IMG/VR virus record: IMGVR_UViG_3300014497_000288 | Location: 1 to 29,015 of that record | Direction: 5' to 3' (one strand) | Source of the DNA: a virus | Length of the DNA stretch: 29,015 nucleotides | Part shown: piece after piece, positions 14,385 to 29,015 of the stretch | Layout: each line of letters opens with the position of its first letter | How positions within the stretch are numbered: the first letter of the stretch is position 1 | Translations under genes and position numbers: made by a program | The notes under the pieces: model-generated | What the model saw: the letters and a program-made list of their open reading frames with translations, nothing else | Database searches by the model: none | What the model was told of the DNA's origin: nothing

Positions 14385-14449
14385 TTTTGAAAGCAACAAA
14401 ACCGTTACACAAAAACCTTATTAAAGGTCATGGTGTATTTTTTTCTACC

Positions 14450-14662
14450 ATGAAAAAAGATGTAACCTTCATAGACACAGAGGGCCGGACAATAAACCTA
14501 AGCAAACCTATGGGTGGACCGGATGCCTGGCATATCTATGTTAATCGGTATTACAATGGCTTACTTGTATTTAAAAATGGCCAATGGGGAATAATGAGCG
14601 GTAATGATGACGAGTTTACTGCTGACTATGCTGATCCCTTGGGTCAATGGCTTGAGGAGTGA
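14450..14662 (+). CDS. Small hypothetical protein (70 aa), divergent from ninG
   Basis: This is one of only three plus-strand genes. From ATG 14450 it encodes 70 residues beginning MKKDVTFIDTEGRTINLSKP, with several Trp and Tyr residues and an acidic C-terminus (DDEFTADYADPLGQWLEE). An upstream in-frame ATG at 14387 would add 21 residues, but it falls at the end of operator 4b and the added residues look non-native. Its divergent placement at the operator pair suggests an accessory or regulatory product. It has no recognisable DNA-binding motif. Confidence 0.65.
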   Translation: MKKDVTFIDTEGRTINLSKPMGGPDAWHIYVNRYYNGLLVFKNGQWGIMSGNDDEFTADYADPLGQWLEE

Positions 14663-17544: not shown

Positions 17545-18345
17545 TTATATAGCTTTATTTAATACATCAAATATTGAAAGCTGTCCATAGTTCAACAAAG
17601 TGTTATATTGTTGTGCAGCCTGTTTTTTAATTAGGTATTCACCCCATTGTTTAGCGATTGCCGATGCAATACCCGGATAAGTTTTGCTTCTGTGTGTTTT
17701 TGTTCTTGGATCATTAAATGCAATCCACTTACCATCTATAATGAGTTTGTTTTGGCCATTATCATCTTGATTTGACCATCTTTTTTTACCATCTACGATA
17801 CGAGGCGGAAAGTAACCTGTGTGCGTTAATAATGGAAAACCTTTGAGCCACAAACATGTTGCTTTACTAGCGTCATCATTGAATTGATAAGGTTGTATAA
17901 TTTGCTCTGGTTTTCTTATGCGAGAGCTAATATATCCTATCGGATTTTCTATAGCTATACATGGAATATCCAATGCCATTAAATCTGATACAAATTGTAG
18001 CGATGATTCAGTTTTTTTAGCTCTTTCTAAATTATGTTTATTCCAATGCAAACCAGATACAGTCATATATGTACAGTCTGGATGAAATATGGCCGCATTC
18101 CATTTTTTAATCCAATATATCTGTCCGTTTTGAGTTATTATAGGCTTTTGAATTGTTGACGCATTGTTTTCATATCCACAAGAAACAGCGTTAAAAACAT
18201 CTCCTTGTATGTGCCATTCTGGATGTCCACCAGAACAAGGTTTTAAATCACAGCTAAAGGCTGAAAAACCAAGTAATCTAAATGCATTAGCAATAGCTTG
18301 ACTCTCTTCACATCCAACTAAAATGTAAATATCTTCTGCCTTCAT
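17545..18345 (-). CDS. DNA cytosine methyltransferase-like phage protein
   Basis: From ATG 18345 the product is 266 residues. The start IYILVGCEESQAIANAFRLLG, then SCDLKP with GDVF, resembles a Rossmann SAM-binding unit. FHPDCTYMTVSG sits where C5-methyltransferases have the PC (motif IV) catalytic loop. AIENPIGYISSRIRKP resembles motif VI (ENV), followed by QPYQFNDDASKATCLWLKGFP, a block conserved in a phage family usually annotated as cytosine methyltransferase. The Pro-Cys dipeptide is Asp-Cys here, and no target recognition domain is obvious, so activity is uncertain. An upstream TTG extension was rejected because it reads through a strong hairpin region. Possible roles are protection from restriction, or base modification. 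Confidence 0.7.
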   Translation of the reverse strand: MKAEDIYILVGCEESQAIANAFRLLGFSAFSCDLKPCSGGHPEWHIQGDVFNAVSCGYENNASTIQKPIITQNGQIYWIKKWNAAIFHPDCTYMTVSGLHWNKHNLERAKKTESSLQFVSDLMALDIPCIAIENPIGYISSRIRKPEQIIQPYQFNDDASKATCLWLKGFPLLTHTGYFPPRIVDGKKRWSNQDDNGQNKLIIDGKWIAFNDPRTKTHRSKTYPGIASAIAKQWGEYLIKKQAAQQYNTLLNYGQLSIFDVLNKAI

Positions 18346-18363
18346 AATCTTATTGTCTTTTAC

Positions 18364-18413
18364 CGCCGAACCCCCAAGCTGGCAAAGCGTTGGGGTCGGA
18401 TGTTCCGGCGGGT
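18364..18413 (-). repeat. Nested GC-rich hairpin with bulged inner stem, copy 1
   Basis: The gap between the methyltransferase-like gene and the 75-aa gene holds a GC-rich nested inverted repeat. In the leftward transcript the outer arms are CCGCCG-G-AAC and GTT-CGGCGG. The inner hairpin (plus 18373-18396) is CCCCAA-C-GC-tttgcca-GC-TTGGGG. The inner part shares CAA-C-GC / GC-TTG with the hairpin at 17290-17315. No U-tract follows. It is more GC-rich than its surroundings, which suggests an inserted REP-like element or a structured leader of the methyltransferase mRNA. Confidence 0.62.
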
Positions 18414-18442
18414 TCTTCAAATCACGTCTTGCAAACGTTCCT

Positions 18443-21364: not shown

Positions 21365-21589
21365 TTACTTGGTAATTCTTTGGTTTTTATTGATTATCTG
21401 TTCAACATAGGATACTGTGATCCGGTATTTATCTGCCAGTTGCTGTACGCTATGCCCTTGGTTTAGAAAATAGTCATAAGCTACTTTTCGCTCGACTGGC
21501 AAATACCCTGGATCTTCATGTTTCCAGTCGGGGCCTCTTATATCTTCTTGCTCAAGCTTTCTCATTTTATGTAAATTCAAATCGTTCAT
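21365..21589 (-). CDS. Small HTH protein (sigma-r4/Homeodomain-like)
   Basis: The 74-residue protein ends in a recognisable helix-turn-helix: VAYDYFLNQGHSVQQLADKYRITVSYVEQIINKNQ (about residues 36-70), of the sigma-region-4/homeodomain-like type. The N-terminus is polar (MRKLEQEDIRGPDWKHEDPG). It may be a transcriptional regulator or replication accessory factor. It is one candidate for the protein binding the GTTAC late-region operators, but nothing in the sequence links them directly. It overlaps the upstream gene by 23 bases. Confidence 0.68.
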   Translation of the reverse strand: MNDLNLHKMRKLEQEDIRGPDWKHEDPGYLPVERKVAYDYFLNQGHSVQQLADKYRITVSYVEQIINKNQRITK

Positions 21590-21863
21590 TTTCTTCTACT
21601 ATTGTGGTCCTAAAAGGGAACCCGTCTTTTGGTATCTGCTGTATTACTTCCATGAGTCCTACCGAAGATGTAAATACTAAGTGTTTCGTTTGGTTTAGTT
21701 CTATTTGCAGATCCAATCTTTTGCCTTTCCCTTCAAACTTTGAATCCTCTATTTTGTAATCGTGAACCGTTATTTCTCTGTTTATGATCTTGTTTATCTT
21801 TATCTTATCACCTGTAAATGCTTTTATTGTGGCTTTTATGCCGAATTGTTGAAATGTTTTCAT
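21567..21863 (-). CDS. Conserved hypothetical protein (98 aa) overlapping the RT gene
   Basis: The 98-residue protein is beta-rich (TIKAFTGDKIKINKIINREI, then KRLDLQIELNQTKHLVFTSS) and ends in acidic/aromatic EENERFEFT. I recall similar small proteins from Bacteroidota phages, possibly single-stranded-DNA-binding-like, but cannot verify this. Its start lies inside the 3' end of the reverse transcriptase gene (56-base overlap), so it is expressed with the DGR. It is not a helical-bundle Avd protein by composition. Confidence 0.6.
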   Translation of the reverse strand: MKTFQQFGIKATIKAFTGDKIKINKIINREITVHDYKIEDSKFEGKGKRLDLQIELNQTKHLVFTSSVGLMEVIQQIPKDGFPFRTTIVEENERFEFT

Positions 21864-22809
21864 GAGGGCTTAATTTCTTTAATAGGTTTTTACTATTACA
21901 ATGCTTTGCCCATCCAGTGTATGATGCAAGAGATAGTTTATTAATTCCTTTTGCTACCTTCCTGGCAAAAGCCTTTTTGATTGATTTTCTTAGAAGTACA
22001 TGGGTATGAAAGTGGACGTATCCACCGAAGTCTATTCCTCTTGATTTAACCGGGAATATTTGCCAATTTGGCTTTACGTTTAATTTTAATCTTTGGGCCA
22101 GGTATTTGGTTATTCCGATTAATGCTCTATGTAGGTATTCCTTATCAGAATGAAGTATTACTATGTCATCGGCATACCTAAAATAGTATTGTACTTTTTT
22201 CTGCTCCTTTAGCCAGTGGTCAAAATAAGTCAGATAAAAATTAGCAAAGTATTGGCTTAAATAATTACCAATAGGCAAACCAGGCGCGCTGTCAATAATA
22301 TCATCAAGCAGCTGCAGCATTTCATTATCCTTAATCTTTTTCCTTAGAAGCGACTTAAGTATATCATGATCCACTGATGGATAAAACTTAGTAATATCAA
22401 GTTTCAAGCAATAAGTTGTTCCTTCAACATCTTTAAGCGCTTTTTTAAGAGCCCGGCTTGCTGCATGTACACCTTTACCCTTGATACAGCTATAAGTATC
22501 AGCAGTGAAAGTTGAAACAAAAATTGGTTCAAGGACAATCATTGCATCATGCTGGATAATTCTATCTCTGTATGGAAGTATCGATATTTTACGCTCCTTA
22601 CCTTCGTTGATTATTCTGGTGCGATATGGTGAAGTACGATACGTTTTGGTTATCAATTCCCGGTATAGATCCGCGATATTCTGATCGTAATTTTTATCAA
22701 AATTTATCACTCCTGATTGCTTAGACTTCCCTCTACGAGCAGTCGCATCAGCTAGCAGTATATTATCTATACTGCACATTTGTTCGTATAAGTTGCCTTT
22801 TCTTTTCAT
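21808..22809 (-). CDS. DGR reverse transcriptase
   Basis: The 333-residue RT carries the motifs expected for a diversity-generating retroelement. The palm motif is CLKLDITKFYPSVD (Asp138). IGNYLSQ (180-186) is the DGR-type [I/L/V]GxxxSQ motif 4, where most other RTs have QGxxxSP. YADD lies at 212-215. A DGR-like C-terminus contains SYTGWAKHCNSKNL (about 296-309). There is no maturase, En or integrase domain, so it is not a group II intron RT. It follows the TR by about 110 bases and would copy the TR transcript with adenine-specific errors into cDNA that replaces VR sequences. No inactivating change is seen. Confidence 0.95.
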   Translation of the reverse strand: MKRKGNLYEQMCSIDNILLADATARRGKSKQSGVINFDKNYDQNIADLYRELITKTYRTSPYRTRIINEGKERKISILPYRDRIIQHDAMIVLEPIFVSTFTADTYSCIKGKGVHAASRALKKALKDVEGTTYCLKLDITKFYPSVDHDILKSLLRKKIKDNEMLQLLDDIIDSAPGLPIGNYLSQYFANFYLTYFDHWLKEQKKVQYYFRYADDIVILHSDKEYLHRALIGITKYLAQRLKLNVKPNWQIFPVKSRGIDFGGYVHFHTHVLLRKSIKKAFARKVAKGINKLSLASYTGWAKHCNSKNLLKKLSPHENISTIRHKSHNKSIYR

Positions 22810-22876
22810 CTTAGCCTATGCTTTGTAGGTCGTCTTCGCGTGAGCTACTAACGCCCTTTAAGTAGTAATTTGTTTT

Positions 22877-22890
22877 TTGCCAAGTGGCAA
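22877..22890 (-). other. Hairpin in the TR-RT spacer
   Basis: TTGCC-aagt-GGCAA forms a compact hairpin in the spacer between TR and RT. In characterised DGRs the RNA downstream of the TR takes part in cDNA priming. This hairpin is therefore a candidate structural element of the TR RNA rather than a terminator (no U-tract on the transcribed strand). Confidence 0.4.
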
Positions 22891-22920
22891 GGTCCGTGCT
22901 GATTAATATTTTTGAAGCAA

Positions 22921-22993
22921 TGTGGGCACTGACATTCGAGTTATCGTTGTCGTAGTTGTAGTCGTTGTACGAAAACCTAGAACCTGAACCAGC
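22921..22993 (-). repeat. DGR template repeat (TR)
   Basis: This 73-bp repeat is 60 of 73 identical to each VR. On the coding strand it starts GCTGGTTCAGG and is rich in AAC and TAC codons, giving the conceptual peptide YNDYNYDNDNSNV. It contains 21 adenines; 16 of them are replaced in at least one VR, while none of the 52 other bases differs. It lies between target gene 1 and the RT in the same orientation, the usual place for a TR. The conceptual frame around it (22811-23005) has only a TTG start and no ribosome-binding site, so I treat the region as non-coding template RNA. Confidence 0.95.
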
Positions 22994-23016
22994 AGCAGCA
23001 CGCAACCTTTTTTTTA

Positions 23017-23403
23017 TTATTTATCTTTAATGTATTCTGACTCTGTTATAACCATTACATCCTTATATAAAGCCTGATGTTTTTTGCCCGCATAAGTAGC
23101 AGATTCATCATCAGGAAATTCGAGGCGGGCACCGACATGCGAGATAACGCCGTCGTAGAGGTAGTCGTTGCACGAAAACCCAGAACCCGAACCAGCACGG
23201 TCTAACCAGAAATAAGGATAGTAACCTACTTTTAGTTTTTTACCTTCTCTTGATGCCTCTGCAATAACCCATAGTTTATACTGTGAGACAATTGGAGTTT
23301 GCAAGTGAGCAGGGATATTAGATACTATAGGAAGCTGAGAATAGTCAATTCCTTTTAATTTTTTAAGTAATGCACAGGCTGATTTGAATGATGTAATTTT
23401 CAT
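23017..23403 (-). CDS. DGR target protein 1 (variable protein)
   Basis: The 128-residue protein contains VR1 at residues 70-94 (AGSGSGFSCNDYLYDGVISH, then VGAR). The N-terminal part has a helix plus YKLWVIAEASREGKKLKVGY and YPYFWLDR. The part after the VR (ATYAGKKHQALYKD) matches the second target protein in layout. Small proteins with Y-P-W/Y-F, a GSGFSYYDY-type segment, VGxR and YAGK recur widely in Bacteroidota and include DGR targets. The VGAR end resembles the 'I-G-F-R' end of C-type-lectin-fold variable regions. There is no signal peptide or anchor, so the ligand-binding site would act in the cytoplasm or on the virion. One base separates it from target gene 2. Confidence 0.88.
   Translation of the reverse strand: MKITSFKSACALLKKLKGIDYSQLPIVSNIPAHLQTPIVSQYKLWVIAEASREGKKLKVGYYPYFWLDRAGSGSGFSCNDYLYDGVISHVGARLEFPDDESATYAGKKHQALYKDVMVITESEYIKDK
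23124..23196 (-). repeat. DGR variable repeat 1 (VR1)
   Basis: This 73-bp copy differs from the TR at 13 positions, all adenines in the TR coding strand. It differs from VR2 at eight positions, again all TR adenines. The 3' coding end GTCGGTGCCCGC, versus GTCAGTGCCCAC in the TR, is the candidate initiation-of-homing region. Confidence 0.94.
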
Positions 23404-23404
23404 A

Positions 23405-23857
23405 TTATTTAGTATTTGGTGAAAAACGTCTTGTTAATATTGAAATGAATTTTTTTCCTGCATAGACTGCTTTATCGGCGGTATCTAAGGAATGGCGGGC
23501 ACCGACAACCGAGTAAGCGCCGTCGTAGTGGTAGTCGTAGTACGAAAACCCAGAACCCGAACCAGCCTTTGGTTTTAATACATATGGATAATACCAATAT
23601 GCTCCCATTTCCAACTCTTTCCCTTCTCTCAATGCCAGGCAAATAGCCTCCCATTCTTTATCTGCTCTCTGAGCATCAGTGTCTCTTTCGGTTCTCCAAT
23701 TGAATTGTTCAATTGTTTCTCCGTTATAATCTAAAGCTGCCTCAAGTGAATCTATACGATCCATAATGTTTAATGAATCTTTATTGATAGCTTTTACTTG
23801 GTCTGATGTAAGCTCAATCTCTTCTGGCTTACCATTTACGTTAATAGTTATTTTCAT
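23405..23857 (-). CDS. DGR target protein 2 (variable protein)
   Basis: From ATG 23857 the product is 150 residues. The frame is open further upstream, but MKITINVNGKPEEIELTSDQ is the natural-looking N-terminus, and the extra residues would overlap the nuclease-motor gene. The first half is a beta-hairpin plus helices (ATSDQ-like hinge, RIDSLEAALDYNGETIEQF). VR2 spans residues 98-122 (AGSGSGFSYYDYHYDGAYSV, then VGAR), followed by AVYAGKKF. The VR and the segment after it are shared with target protein 1, while the N-terminal regions differ. This suggests two different adaptors carrying the same diversified module. There is no export signal. Confidence 0.87.
   Translation of the reverse strand: MKITINVNGKPEEIELTSDQVKAINKDSLNIMDRIDSLEAALDYNGETIEQFNWRTERDTDAQRADKEWEAICLALREGKELEMGAYWYYPYVLKPKAGSGSGFSYYDYHYDGAYSVVGARHSLDTADKAVYAGKKFISILTRRFSPNTK
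23494..23566 (-). repeat. DGR variable repeat 2 (VR2)
   Basis: This 73-bp copy differs from the TR at 13 positions, all TR adenines. Eight substitutions are identical in VR1 and VR2, restoring Gly and Arg (GSGSG, DG, VGAR) where the TR encodes Arg, Asn, Ser and His. The other changes differ between the two VRs and fall on the exposed NDY/NYD/NSN positions. Confidence 0.94.
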
Positions 23858-23882: not shown

Positions 23883-25997
23883 TTATTTATTGTAGTAATA
23901 TGCCTGGAAACGAACGGTATCTTTGTACTCTGGGGATTTAAGCAAACCATCGCCTTTTCCTGCTAAAGACTCTGCTCCTGGTTCATCCAGAACTACTGTA
24001 CTATCGATTGCTTTAGGCACATAGAAACAAACCACCACAGGAAAATTAGCTTTGGTGTCTCCGGTTATAATCTTTGTAGAGGCGCGCTGAGTGGCTGATA
24101 GAACACGGAATCCAACTGATCTACCTTTCTGTACTAAAATTCTCATGTTCTCTTCCAGAGACTTTAACTGCCCGGTAGTTTGAAGCTTCATTTTAGGTTC
24201 CGGCTCGTCATAGAAACCAAACATGTTTTTCTTGGCCGCATATGTTCCAACTTGGACCATTTCTTTTACTTCAAGCTCCTTACCTGATCTGGCCGAAGCG
24301 ACAGCATCCGCAAACTCTTCCAGAATGATCAGTCTCTTTTTGCTTGAGCCAGACTTAACCATATCATTCATTTCAATTACCTGACGCGCCATTTCCTCTT
24401 CAATCTCAATGATTTCATTAAGTACTCTTACTTTTGGATCCTTTTTGTAAGAAACAAATTCACGCTTAGGATCCATGATGATGATATGCTCTATCCCGGC
24501 CAGTTTTGCATATTCTATAGTTGATTTAATCGATACCGACTTTCCGCTACCAGTTGCCCCGCAAACAAGCATGTGAGGTGTTGACTGATTATCAAGATCC
24601 CAGACAATGATGTTTCCGTAATTATCCCGGCCAATTGGTATTTTCATATCTACAAGATCTGCAGGTTCGAAAAATAAATCCTTCTCTCTGGCTTTTGAAT
24701 AATCAACTGGCAAGTATGATTCTCCTTGGAATACGGTTAGTTCTTTTGGAATCCTAACATTAGTCACATTTAAGGCATTTGCAATATCCAAACGGTGGTT
24801 ATGTATAGAGGATAGTTTCACCCCTGCTCCGGCCTTTAAAAGGAAGGTATTACTTGAATACCCTTCGAACATGTGAGACACCATAACTGGCGCGCCAAAT
24901 GTGTTTAATACGTGTTCTATTTTTTGCTGAGGTGTCATATCTTTATTGCTTAAATCGTATTGAATAAATGTTGATGCGTTTTGCTTGAAGTTCTTAATTA
25001 CTTTAGGACTGATATTTTGAATTGATGCATCTCGGTTTTTACGCATTCTCATTGCAACCAACTCCTTTTTATTATCAGCTACATTGAAGTCTTCAACCTC
25101 CATGATCAAAGTCCTGGCCCAGAAGTCATACAGTTCAGCTTTATCTACAAAATTGTCTGAGTCGTTAATTATGTAGGTATGATCTGGATCGCTAACCGCC
25201 TCAAGCAATCTTTTTAAAGGTTCATAAAGGAGAACTTCATAAAGCCTTCTCACATTATCATCTAAATCAAGCTTGAAATTGTTTAGCTGCTTAGCCCCAG
25301 TTTTATTTTTTGCATATTTATTTTCTACAAACCATACTTCGTCAACATCAATACCTGTTTTTGATTTGTATAACTTATCGTAGGTTATAGCCTGCTTACC
25401 AATACCCAATTTCATTTCCTCTTCTGTGGAGAATGATTTTTTAGATTTATGGTCAACTATGGCTATTTTGCCCTTTTTAGTCCTTACAACCAAATCTATT
25501 TTCCCGTGGCACGGCATTGGAATATCGACACCATTTATAGTTAACCATTCGTCACAATAAACCTCTACATCTAATATTTCCTCTATATCATCCTCGTAAG
25601 TAGAGACTTCATACATGAAGTTTTTGAGTAACGCGGTAACTGTCTTAAGGGCTTCTGAAATACATTCTTCTACAGTAGGAGTTGTCTTCTGTAACTTCCA
25701 GGCATATGCTGGCTTTTCTTCGATAAACTCAAAAGCAATAAGCTCTAATGTTACTAGATCCATTTTATCAGCACCGGACATTATTGCTCCGAAGTAACTA
25801 TCCAAAGCTTTATGGTATGCCTGGCCTGCGATTGTTGATGCTGACGTACTTGATCTTTCTCCGAATATGTACTCCCGCTCAAAGGCTTTCTCATTCCTTG
25901 AGAATTGGGTAACCTTTGAATAACTCCATGAATCTATAAGGAACTGAGAAAACAAGTTTTCGAGTTGACCCGGTGTATAATTCTTGTAAACACTCAT
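23883..25997 (-). CDS. RecB-like nuclease fused to an FtsK-type DNA translocase
   Basis: In this 704-residue fusion, about residues 20-260 form a PD-(D/E)XK RecB/Cas4-like nuclease: His62 in GQAYHKAL, Asp168 in HGKIDLVV, Asp182 and Lys184 in IVDHKSKK, and a QxxxY motif (Gln202/Tyr206). About residues 350-430 resemble the FtsK alpha/beta domain (AGAGVKLSSIHNHRLDIANAL). About residues 455-700 are the FtsK/HerA motor, with Walker A GATGSGKS (480-487), Walker B RLIILEEFAD (555-564) and VGFRVLSATQR (628-638). No gamma (KOPS-reading) domain or membrane anchor is present. A motor that pulls DNA through a nuclease, paired with the annealing protein upstream (ATGA overlap), would make a Red-like recombination module. 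Alternatives are concatemer resolution or host DNA degradation. Confidence 0.85.
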   Translation of the reverse strand: MSVYKNYTPGQLENLFSQFLIDSWSYSKVTQFSRNEKAFEREYIFGERSSTSASTIAGQAYHKALDSYFGAIMSGADKMDLVTLELIAFEFIEEKPAYAWKLQKTTPTVEECISEALKTVTALLKNFMYEVSTYEDDIEEILDVEVYCDEWLTINGVDIPMPCHGKIDLVVRTKKGKIAIVDHKSKKSFSTEEEMKLGIGKQAITYDKLYKSKTGIDVDEVWFVENKYAKNKTGAKQLNNFKLDLDDNVRRLYEVLLYEPLKRLLEAVSDPDHTYIINDSDNFVDKAELYDFWARTLIMEVEDFNVADNKKELVAMRMRKNRDASIQNISPKVIKNFKQNASTFIQYDLSNKDMTPQQKIEHVLNTFGAPVMVSHMFEGYSSNTFLLKAGAGVKLSSIHNHRLDIANALNVTNVRIPKELTVFQGESYLPVDYSKAREKDLFFEPADLVDMKIPIGRDNYGNIIVWDLDNQSTPHMLVCGATGSGKSVSIKSTIEYAKLAGIEHIIIMDPKREFVSYKKDPKVRVLNEIIEIEEEMARQVIEMNDMVKSGSSKKRLIILEEFADAVASARSGKELEVKEMVQVGTYAAKKNMFGFYDEPEPKMKLQTTGQLKSLEENMRILVQKGRSVGFRVLSATQRASTKIITGDTKANFPVVVCFYVPKAIDSTVVLDEPGAESLAGKGDGLLKSPEYKDTVRFQAYYYNK

Positions 25998-28349: not shown

Positions 28350-29015
28350 ATGGAAAACAATTTCAATATTATTGAATACTTAAAAACAGAGGGAAAAGAA
28401 AACGGCGCTCAGATCGCAAAAAAGCTAGATGTAAGCCCAGCGTTCATTAGTAATCTATTAAAAGGTAAACCAATAGGTTTAGAACTAGCAAAGAAAATAG
28501 CAAAGGTTTATAAATTGTCCTTATCGTTTGTAACCACTGGAAAAGATTCTGATGCAATAGGTCCATCATCTGGTGCGTCCACAAACATGCCATCGACAAA
28601 TAAAAATGGTCACGGAGTTCCTTATTTTGATATAGACTTCATAGGAGGCTTTGACTTGATATATAATAGCCAACAGGTAAAACCATCATTTTATATAGAC
28701 TTTCTTCCTTTTAATGATGCAGACTACTGGGTTAATGTGACTGGCAAAAGTATGGGGCCGTTAATAGCTCATGGTGATATTATAGCACTAAAAGAAGTAT
28801 CTGATTGGAAACGGTTTCTCCTTGAGGGAGAGATATACGCCATCCTAACCGATAACGGGTTTCGAACGGTAAAGATTATAGGAAAAGGTCCAGATAAGGA
28901 TCATTACATGCTAATACCCTACAACAAGAGTGATGATTATAGCCCACAACCAATTCCAAAAGAAGTTATTACCCATGTATTTAGGGTTAAGGGCGCAATT
29001 AAGAAATTCTTTTAA
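28350..29015 (+). CDS. CI-like phage repressor, HTH plus S24 peptidase
   Basis: The 221-residue protein is the likely lysogeny repressor. About residues 6-60 form a Cro/CI-type helix-turn-helix (GAQIAKKLDVSPAFISNLLK). A linker (about 64-88) is rich in Ser, Gly and Asn. About residues 90-221 are an S24/LexA-like peptidase domain with the catalytic Ser134 in TGKSMGPLIAHGD and Lys175 in FRTVKIIGKG, 41 residues apart as in this family. Self-cleavage under RecA stimulation would lift repression. The usual Ala-Gly cleavage pair is not obvious; Gly-Gly at 99-100 (DFIGGF) is a candidate. It reads away from the leftward early operon and ends at the last base of the window. Confidence 0.9.
   Translation: MENNFNIIEYLKTEGKENGAQIAKKLDVSPAFISNLLKGKPIGLELAKKIAKVYKLSLSFVTTGKDSDAIGPSSGASTNMPSTNKNGHGVPYFDIDFIGGFDLIYNSQQVKPSFYIDFLPFNDADYWVNVTGKSMGPLIAHGDIIALKEVSDWKRFLLEGEIYAILTDNGFRTVKIIGKGPDKDHYMLIPYNKSDDYSPQPIPKEVITHVFRVKGAIKKFF

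Follow-up and report, generated by a model that had tools for sequence, protein, structure and literature searches.

A diversity-generating retroelement in the early operon of a temperate Bacteroidota phage, probably dedicated to two small early proteins

Introduction

The VR of a diversity-generating retroelement (DGR) usually lies at the very C-terminus of the target, and the DGRs of phages are read almost by default as tail-fibre switches. In Bordetella phage BPP-1, the element has the order mtd-avd-TR-brt and its target is a tail fibre. Tail-protein annotation also prevails among the viral DGR targets of clades 1, 4 and 6 (PMC8144416). Non-structural targets were known before this work. 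Quimbyvirus has one in a defence-related neighbourhood (Benler et al. 2021, PMC8008677), and the DGR system of the Bacteroides phage LoVEphage offers a further comparison (PMC8525569); by our own reading LoVEphage is a Quimby-like phage, both having 71 kb and a reverse transcriptase (RT) in three frames. In these phages the DGR serves a tail target too, with the early target about 15 kb away from the cassette. Inducible gut prophages carry distal second VRs near counter-defence genes (PMC12629997). Several VRs combined with one template repeat (TR) are found in the multi-VR cassettes G2 and G4 of Yan et al. 2019 (PMC6642488), which are commoner in Proteobacteria; early context and an accessory gene are not given in the portions of that paper drawn on here.

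The locus described here extends the non-structural systems to a dedicated cassette that is found in many non-gut genera. It is best read as an intact DGR that a temperate phage of Bacteroidota carries in its early operon and that serves exclusively a pair of small, early non-tail proteins (probability about 0.8). The core chemistry of this DGR is ordinary, while its targets and parts are unusual.

Organization of the cassette

The stretch of DNA that was analysed, here called the window, is a virus record of 29 kb (29,015 nucleotides) with terminase, portal and capsid genes at the left and a CI-like repressor at the right end. The cassette belongs to a leftward operon and stands between the divergent repressor and replication genes, with about 9 kb separating it from the terminase genes, and the description of a complete DGR in the early region, made in an earlier note on this DNA, is borne out by this position. 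The cassette is larger than was then thought, as it comprises two adjoining small targets, the TR, a structured RNA, the RT and a gene for an OB-like protein. The features are as follows, with fixed positions of the repeats, discussed below, called the fence.

28350..29015, plus strand: CI-like repressor, divergent from the early operon and extending past the window end (phrog_4, E 5e-29)
23883..25997, minus strand: fusion of a PD-(D/E)XK nuclease and an FtsK/HerA-type ATPase, upstream early gene
23405..23857, minus strand: target gene A, 150 aa, containing VR2 and about 30 codons after it, recognized through homologues
23494..23566, minus strand: VR2, inside target gene A; fence at 23558, 23551, 23503, 23496 and 23494
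23017..23403, minus strand: target gene B, 128 aa, containing VR1 and beginning directly after the end of target gene A
23124..23196, minus strand: VR1, inside target gene B; fence at 23188, 23181, 23133, 23126 and 23124
22921..22993, minus strand: TR, with 21 coding-strand adenines; fence at 22985, 22978, 22930, 22923 and 22921
22817..22894, minus strand: conserved structured RNA, Rfam RT-17 (RF03020), 42.7 bits against a gathering score of 40.4, E 7.6e-7
21808..22809, minus strand: DGR-type RT, 333 aa, assigned by motifs, structure, tblastn and tree
21567..21863, minus strand: 98-aa accessory protein with an OB-like predicted fold, overlapping the RT 3' end by 56 bp
17545..18420, minus strand: DNA methyltransferase (phrog_757), about 4 kb downstream of the cassette

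The earlier note had missed the 98-aa gene, the structured RNA, the fixed positions 9, 16, 64, 71 and 73 of the repeats and the 30 to 36 codons that follow each VR. A lone plus-strand ORF of 91 aa (14387-14662) lies within the leftward operon. The nuclease-ATPase fusion (23883-25997) has a 59% identical homologue in L065, a locus that carries fused targets.

The repeats and their adenine bias

TR, VR1 and VR2 are three 73-bp copies, located exactly where they had been placed before, with the minus strand as coding strand. The VRs sit in coding genes and the TR in the spacer preceding the RT, so that in the window a single TR serves two VRs. An open frame of 64 codons with a TTG start runs across the TR (22811-23005); it has a weak PHROGs match (E 0.006) and no match in a Pfam search. 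On the coding strand each VR has 13 mismatches to the TR. Together these occupy 16 positions, all of them among the 21 TR adenines and none among the 52 other positions (hypergeometric p = 3.9e-12), and the eight positions at which VR1 and VR2 differ from each other are likewise all TR adenines. The mutagenic retrohoming signature that had been compared with Bordetella phage thus holds as far as the mutagenic transfer from TR to VR is concerned. The comparison does not extend to anatomy and target, since the window has no Avd match, no hairpin after the VR and small early targets.

The same bias is found family-wide. In 153 viral and 150 genomic TR/VR pairs, 66-69% of A but 0.4-2.4% of C, G and T are mismatched, a contrast of about thirty-fold or more that is somewhat favoured, because pairs found by a symmetric repeat search were retained only if at least 50-60% of their mismatches were at A. 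Only the TR adenines of a core of about 35 bp are randomised, and these show a broad spectrum of A, G, T and C. A reading of the copies as chance repeats was dropped in view of the adenine-only differences, the family-wide bias and the near-clonal pairs described below.

Fixed positions at both flanks of the core

At both flanks of the core, TR and VR hold different fixed bases. Five of the 16 differences in the window (coding positions 9, 16, 64, 71 and 73) are a fixed contrast between A in the TR and G or C in the VR that is common to hundreds of VRs. This fence was analysed in 125 distinct cassettes anchored on the VR 3' motif, where window positions 64, 71, 16 and 9 correspond to +3, +10, -45 and -52, and position 73 to +12. 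The TR has A at +3 and +10 in 120 of the 125 cassettes, whereas the VR has G at +3 in 231 of 234 and at +10 in 231 of 233 cases. Where the TR has A, the VR has G at -45 in 155 of 157 and at -52 in 98 of 101; at +12, all 35 VRs have C. Being a fixed donor/acceptor difference and not new mutation, the five fence differences are no evidence of activity.

The fence appears comparable to IMH*/IMH of BPP-1 (PMC3240598), in which TR and VR also differ near the VR 3' end, as the window does with its fixed A/G at +3 and +10. Protein constraint (Gly, Arg) could account for the bases in the VR. It fails to explain why A is kept in the untranslated TR, and the sole explanation offered is that the fence bases may act as a directional mark between the TR as donor and the VR as acceptor.

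Reverse transcriptase, structured RNA and accessory protein

The top match of the RT among solved structures is 8ub7 (E 8e-49), with group II RTs thirty orders of magnitude behind (1e-18); the entry title of 8ub7 is just 'Reverse transcriptase', and we take it to be the BPP-1 DGR RT. With tblastn, the RT matches BPP-1 brt and crAss-like DGR RTs, and in a tree it groups with these, apart from the group II RTs, with support 100/100. The cr52_1 RT in this tree is incomplete because the record reads through TAG, and its placement is void; in NC_055888.1 the RT frame has six TAG codons. Structure match, tblastn and tree together confirm the earlier assignment as a DGR RT, which had been based on the motifs IGNYLSQ and YADD, and the SQ motif within the former has been tied to DGR RTs (DiGReF, PMC3521204). 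In the tree, the RT of a tail-type locus (L148) pairs with that of an early-type locus (L081) at 99/95, so that one RT clade serves both tail and early targets.

The spacer between TR and RT is a member of Rfam RT-17 (RF03020) above the gathering score, with no difference from that family noted. The connection of this RNA family to the present DGR cassette is made in this analysis; the corresponding family in BPP-1 is Phage_DGR (RF03022). RNAalifold on the spacer of 36 relatives gives 12 consensus pairs, 11 of them with compensatory changes. Among the family loci tested, only the window and L084 reach the gathering score, yet the structure is still conserved in the alignment.

The 98-aa gene adjoins the RT in 79 of 80 viral and 74 of 80 genomic RT loci and, in the reverse direction, all 79 loci fetched by the 98-aa protein alone have an RT. 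The predicted structure (pLDDT 90) has the strand order b-b-b-a-b-b. Compared with SSB, mitochondrial SSB and PriB it reaches VIA Z scores of 5-6 (maximum 6.7), below the decisive level, and Foldseek gave no match at E<=0.001; the model is suggestive of an OB fold. The 98-aa gene also lies near the RTs of L148 and L162, whose DGRs are aimed at large tail-type proteins. In LoVEphage (MW660583.1; L319:1065-1649) the ORF after the RT fuses RT C-terminal sequence with an OB-like domain, and the RT is split over several frames. The Avd model NF033474 found nothing in 33 records including the window, while the BPP-1 positive control scored E 2e-32. We infer that the OB-like protein may replace Avd in these DGRs.

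With BPP-1 the window shares adenine-specific transfer, a related RT and the order VR-TR-RT. It differs in the absence of an Avd match and of a hairpin after the VR, in having two small early targets and in the OB-like gene after the RT. A GC-rich hairpin or cruciform of the BPP-1 type (stem of at least 7) within 45 nt after the VR was found for none of 205 VRs.

The cassette in relatives

The family was sampled with 80 IMG/VR relatives and 80 genome loci of the RT; genomic hosts include Pedobacter, Sphingobacterium, Flavobacterium, Elizabethkingia, Dysgonomonas, Ignavibacteria and others. Most relatives retain the order target, target, TR, RT, 98-aa gene, and of the 74 genomic loci that have a TR, 66 carry two or three VRs. 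CI-like repressor (34 loci), MuB (33) and MuA (20) are found upstream only. Mu-type portal (35), tail completion (42) and one TerL family (23) are found downstream only and almost all on the opposite strand; in other backbones TerL is downstream on the same strand (13 loci), as in the window. The layout thus recurs in the early operons of temperate Bacteroidota phages that are not related to one another and whose structural genes lie elsewhere. DNA methyltransferase genes also recur near the cassette. The family is rare, as the target profile is found in one and the OB-like profile in four of 296 Bacteroidota genomes; in the two of these four that were inspected (G188, G288) the RT is close by.

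The two targets and their homologues

The start of target A was set at the ATG at 23857 by homology, and its ORF might begin at 23950. In both targets 30 to 36 codons follow the VR. Adjacent target genes of relatives are nearly always within a few bases of each other, and both are fused into one ORF in three loci (L065, L081, L145), which suggests that the two proteins work together. The alignment containing these fusions was unsuited to folding the target pair. A VIA search of the PDB with the target model gave no match, and in BFVD only uncharacterised gut-phage proteins matched. As to a C-type lectin fold, the fold expected of a BPP-1-type target, the target profile has a weak match (E 0.002) in L159, in the VR segment of its large target of the tail type, and the target model is of low confidence in the VR core. 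With tblastn the window targets have no match in phage records, although a family member closer to the consensus did match. Additional remote members with VRs lie several kb off the cassette at L066:892 and at L121:5897 and 18773 (Dyadobacter).

Homologues of the targets are present in LoVEphage, Versailles and cr52_1. A profile of the window target family scores 89.9 bits (E 4e-27) against the early protein of LoVEphage, and the ORF that follows the LoVEphage RT is recognized by the OB-like profile (E 2e-7). Judged by these profiles, the window targets share homology with the second, non-structural target that the DGRs of LoVEphage and Quimby-like phages serve. The difference is that here the cassette itself carries two tandem early targets, and the closest relatives have no tail VR. 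The distal VRs of gut prophages are alike in that a DGR target lies near DNA methyltransferase genes, far from the RT. They differ in being the remote second target of a tail-targeting DGR and in having no dedicated early cassette.

These homologues bear on one alternative, an ordinary tropism-switching DGR, in which the targets would be oddly placed receptor-binding virion proteins or a tail-fibre VR would lie beyond the window end. The window does end inside the tail module, and the predominance of tail annotation among viral DGR targets speaks for such a system. In the gut phages, moreover, relatives of the targets occur where the TR also serves a tail gene, as in LoVEphage and as in Bacteroides phage Versailles and the crAss-like cr52_1, in each of which one TR matches a tail VR and an early homologue with all mismatches at TR adenines. 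In Versailles (ON453897.1; L274:5863-6444; L244:3624-3731) the early protein that holds the remote VR, about 44 kb away, is annotated 'tail protein', and in cr52_1 (NC_055888.1; L275:3995-4399; L083:4774) the early hypothetical gp91 holds a second VR of the tail DGR, 65 bp with 14 mismatches, all at TR adenines. Against this stands the Pedobacter prophage that is the closest relative and is complete; it carries helicase, cassette, protease, terminase, tail fibre-like protein, tape measure and integrase genes. Its TR and three VRs are all within the early cassette, and no VR was found outside it in the prophage or the whole 5.6-Mb host genome. In sixteen complete or near-complete records, each searched with its own TR, every VR falls within a small ORF or a fused pair and none in a large tail ORF; neither in the relatives searched nor within the window was there a tail-fibre target as in BPP-1. 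The structural genes are also separate and often on the opposite strand. A tropism-switching system is accordingly improbable.

Activity of the element

That the element is or was recently active had been concluded from VR1 and VR2 differing only at TR adenines. This was too strong, as five of the 16 sites are fixed in nearly every VR of the family, and the VR1/VR2 comparison alone cannot date activity. What stands is that near-clonal relatives vary only at VR adenines. L038 and L039 differ at 13 of 62 VR adenines and at none of 187 other VR positions, 88 TR positions and 2313 positions outside (0 of 2,588 in total); L175 and L185 differ at 9 of 44 VR adenines and nowhere else. The members of each pair come from different metagenomes. 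At the early homologue of LoVEphage genomes, 12-20 of 26 VR adenines vary (one identical pair excepted) and none of 87 non-A positions, so that in neither set do relatives vary at other bases as they do at A. Recent diversification of the VRs in near-clonal relatives is supported by these sequence comparisons.

In the lineage of the window, the TRs of the window and of the Pedobacter relative differ at the non-A position 51 (T and C, respectively), and within each phage every VR mirrors its own TR. Throughout the family, VRs track non-A differences of the TR in 170,080 of 170,867 comparisons, which were made over all pairs and are not independent. Because VRs follow their own TR at non-A changes, TR-to-VR transfer seems to have taken place since divergence from the Pedobacter relative. 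The mirroring is evidence of past transfer and not of present activity in the phage of the window.

The element could instead be a relic in this particular phage, with VR1 and VR2 diversified long ago or one copied from the other, as eight of the ten adenines mutated in both carry the same non-TR base. However, five of these eight are fence positions, and selection may act on a further two (46/47, Asn to Gly). In addition, RT, RNA and accessory gene are all intact and the VRs have no non-A drift from the TR, so that a relic is very improbable. A more general reading as a defective element was also dropped, given the adenine-only differences, the family bias and the near-clonal pairs that differ only at VR adenines.

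A possible mechanism and role

A DGR dedicated to two early proteins might work as follows. The early transcript would supply TR and RT-17 RNA, from which the RT would make cDNA with random bases opposite TR adenines. The OB-like protein would act on RNA or cDNA, in the place that Avd has in other DGRs, and in each of the two target genes the cDNA would take the place of the VR core. With A in the TR and G or C in the VR, the fence would work like IMH*/IMH, so that the TR stays donor and the VR acceptor. Early in infection the two target proteins would then act jointly in the host cell, as the natural fusions suggest, and bind to partners that change, most likely components of the host's defences.

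As it is small early proteins and not a tail fibre that are diversified, an intracellular arms race with the host is suggested. Intracellular counter-defence is the most likely function of the targets, a guess from context with roughly even odds. Superinfection exclusion or lysogenic conversion ranks next and is unlikely: the prophage would produce the targets, which would bind superinfecting phages or work at the cell surface. The phages are temperate with a CI-like repressor, and it has been suggested that DGRs generate varied defence proteins (PMC10053308); yet the target genes lie in the operon that this repressor should silence in the lysogen, and by eye no signal peptide or membrane helix is obvious in the targets. 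The early gene position does not prove that the targets are absent from the virion, but a role as virion part is still less probable.

Implications

Early operons of Mu-like and other temperate phages of Bacteroidota have kept the same DGR machinery, which there serves small early proteins alone. It may tentatively be imagined, at somewhat less than even odds, that this DGR lineage gave up receptor switching for a dedicated early intracellular system, in which paired small proteins act as one complex against variable host defences and the OB-like protein and RT-17 RNA replace Avd and its RNA. The cassette supplies a candidate replacement for Avd, and its marked TR/VR boundary may reveal how donor and acceptor are distinguished. 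The question which partner, probably intracellular, changes fast enough to require random libraries becomes testable, and the Pedobacter gandavensis prophage with its three VRs offers a cultured host for such tests.
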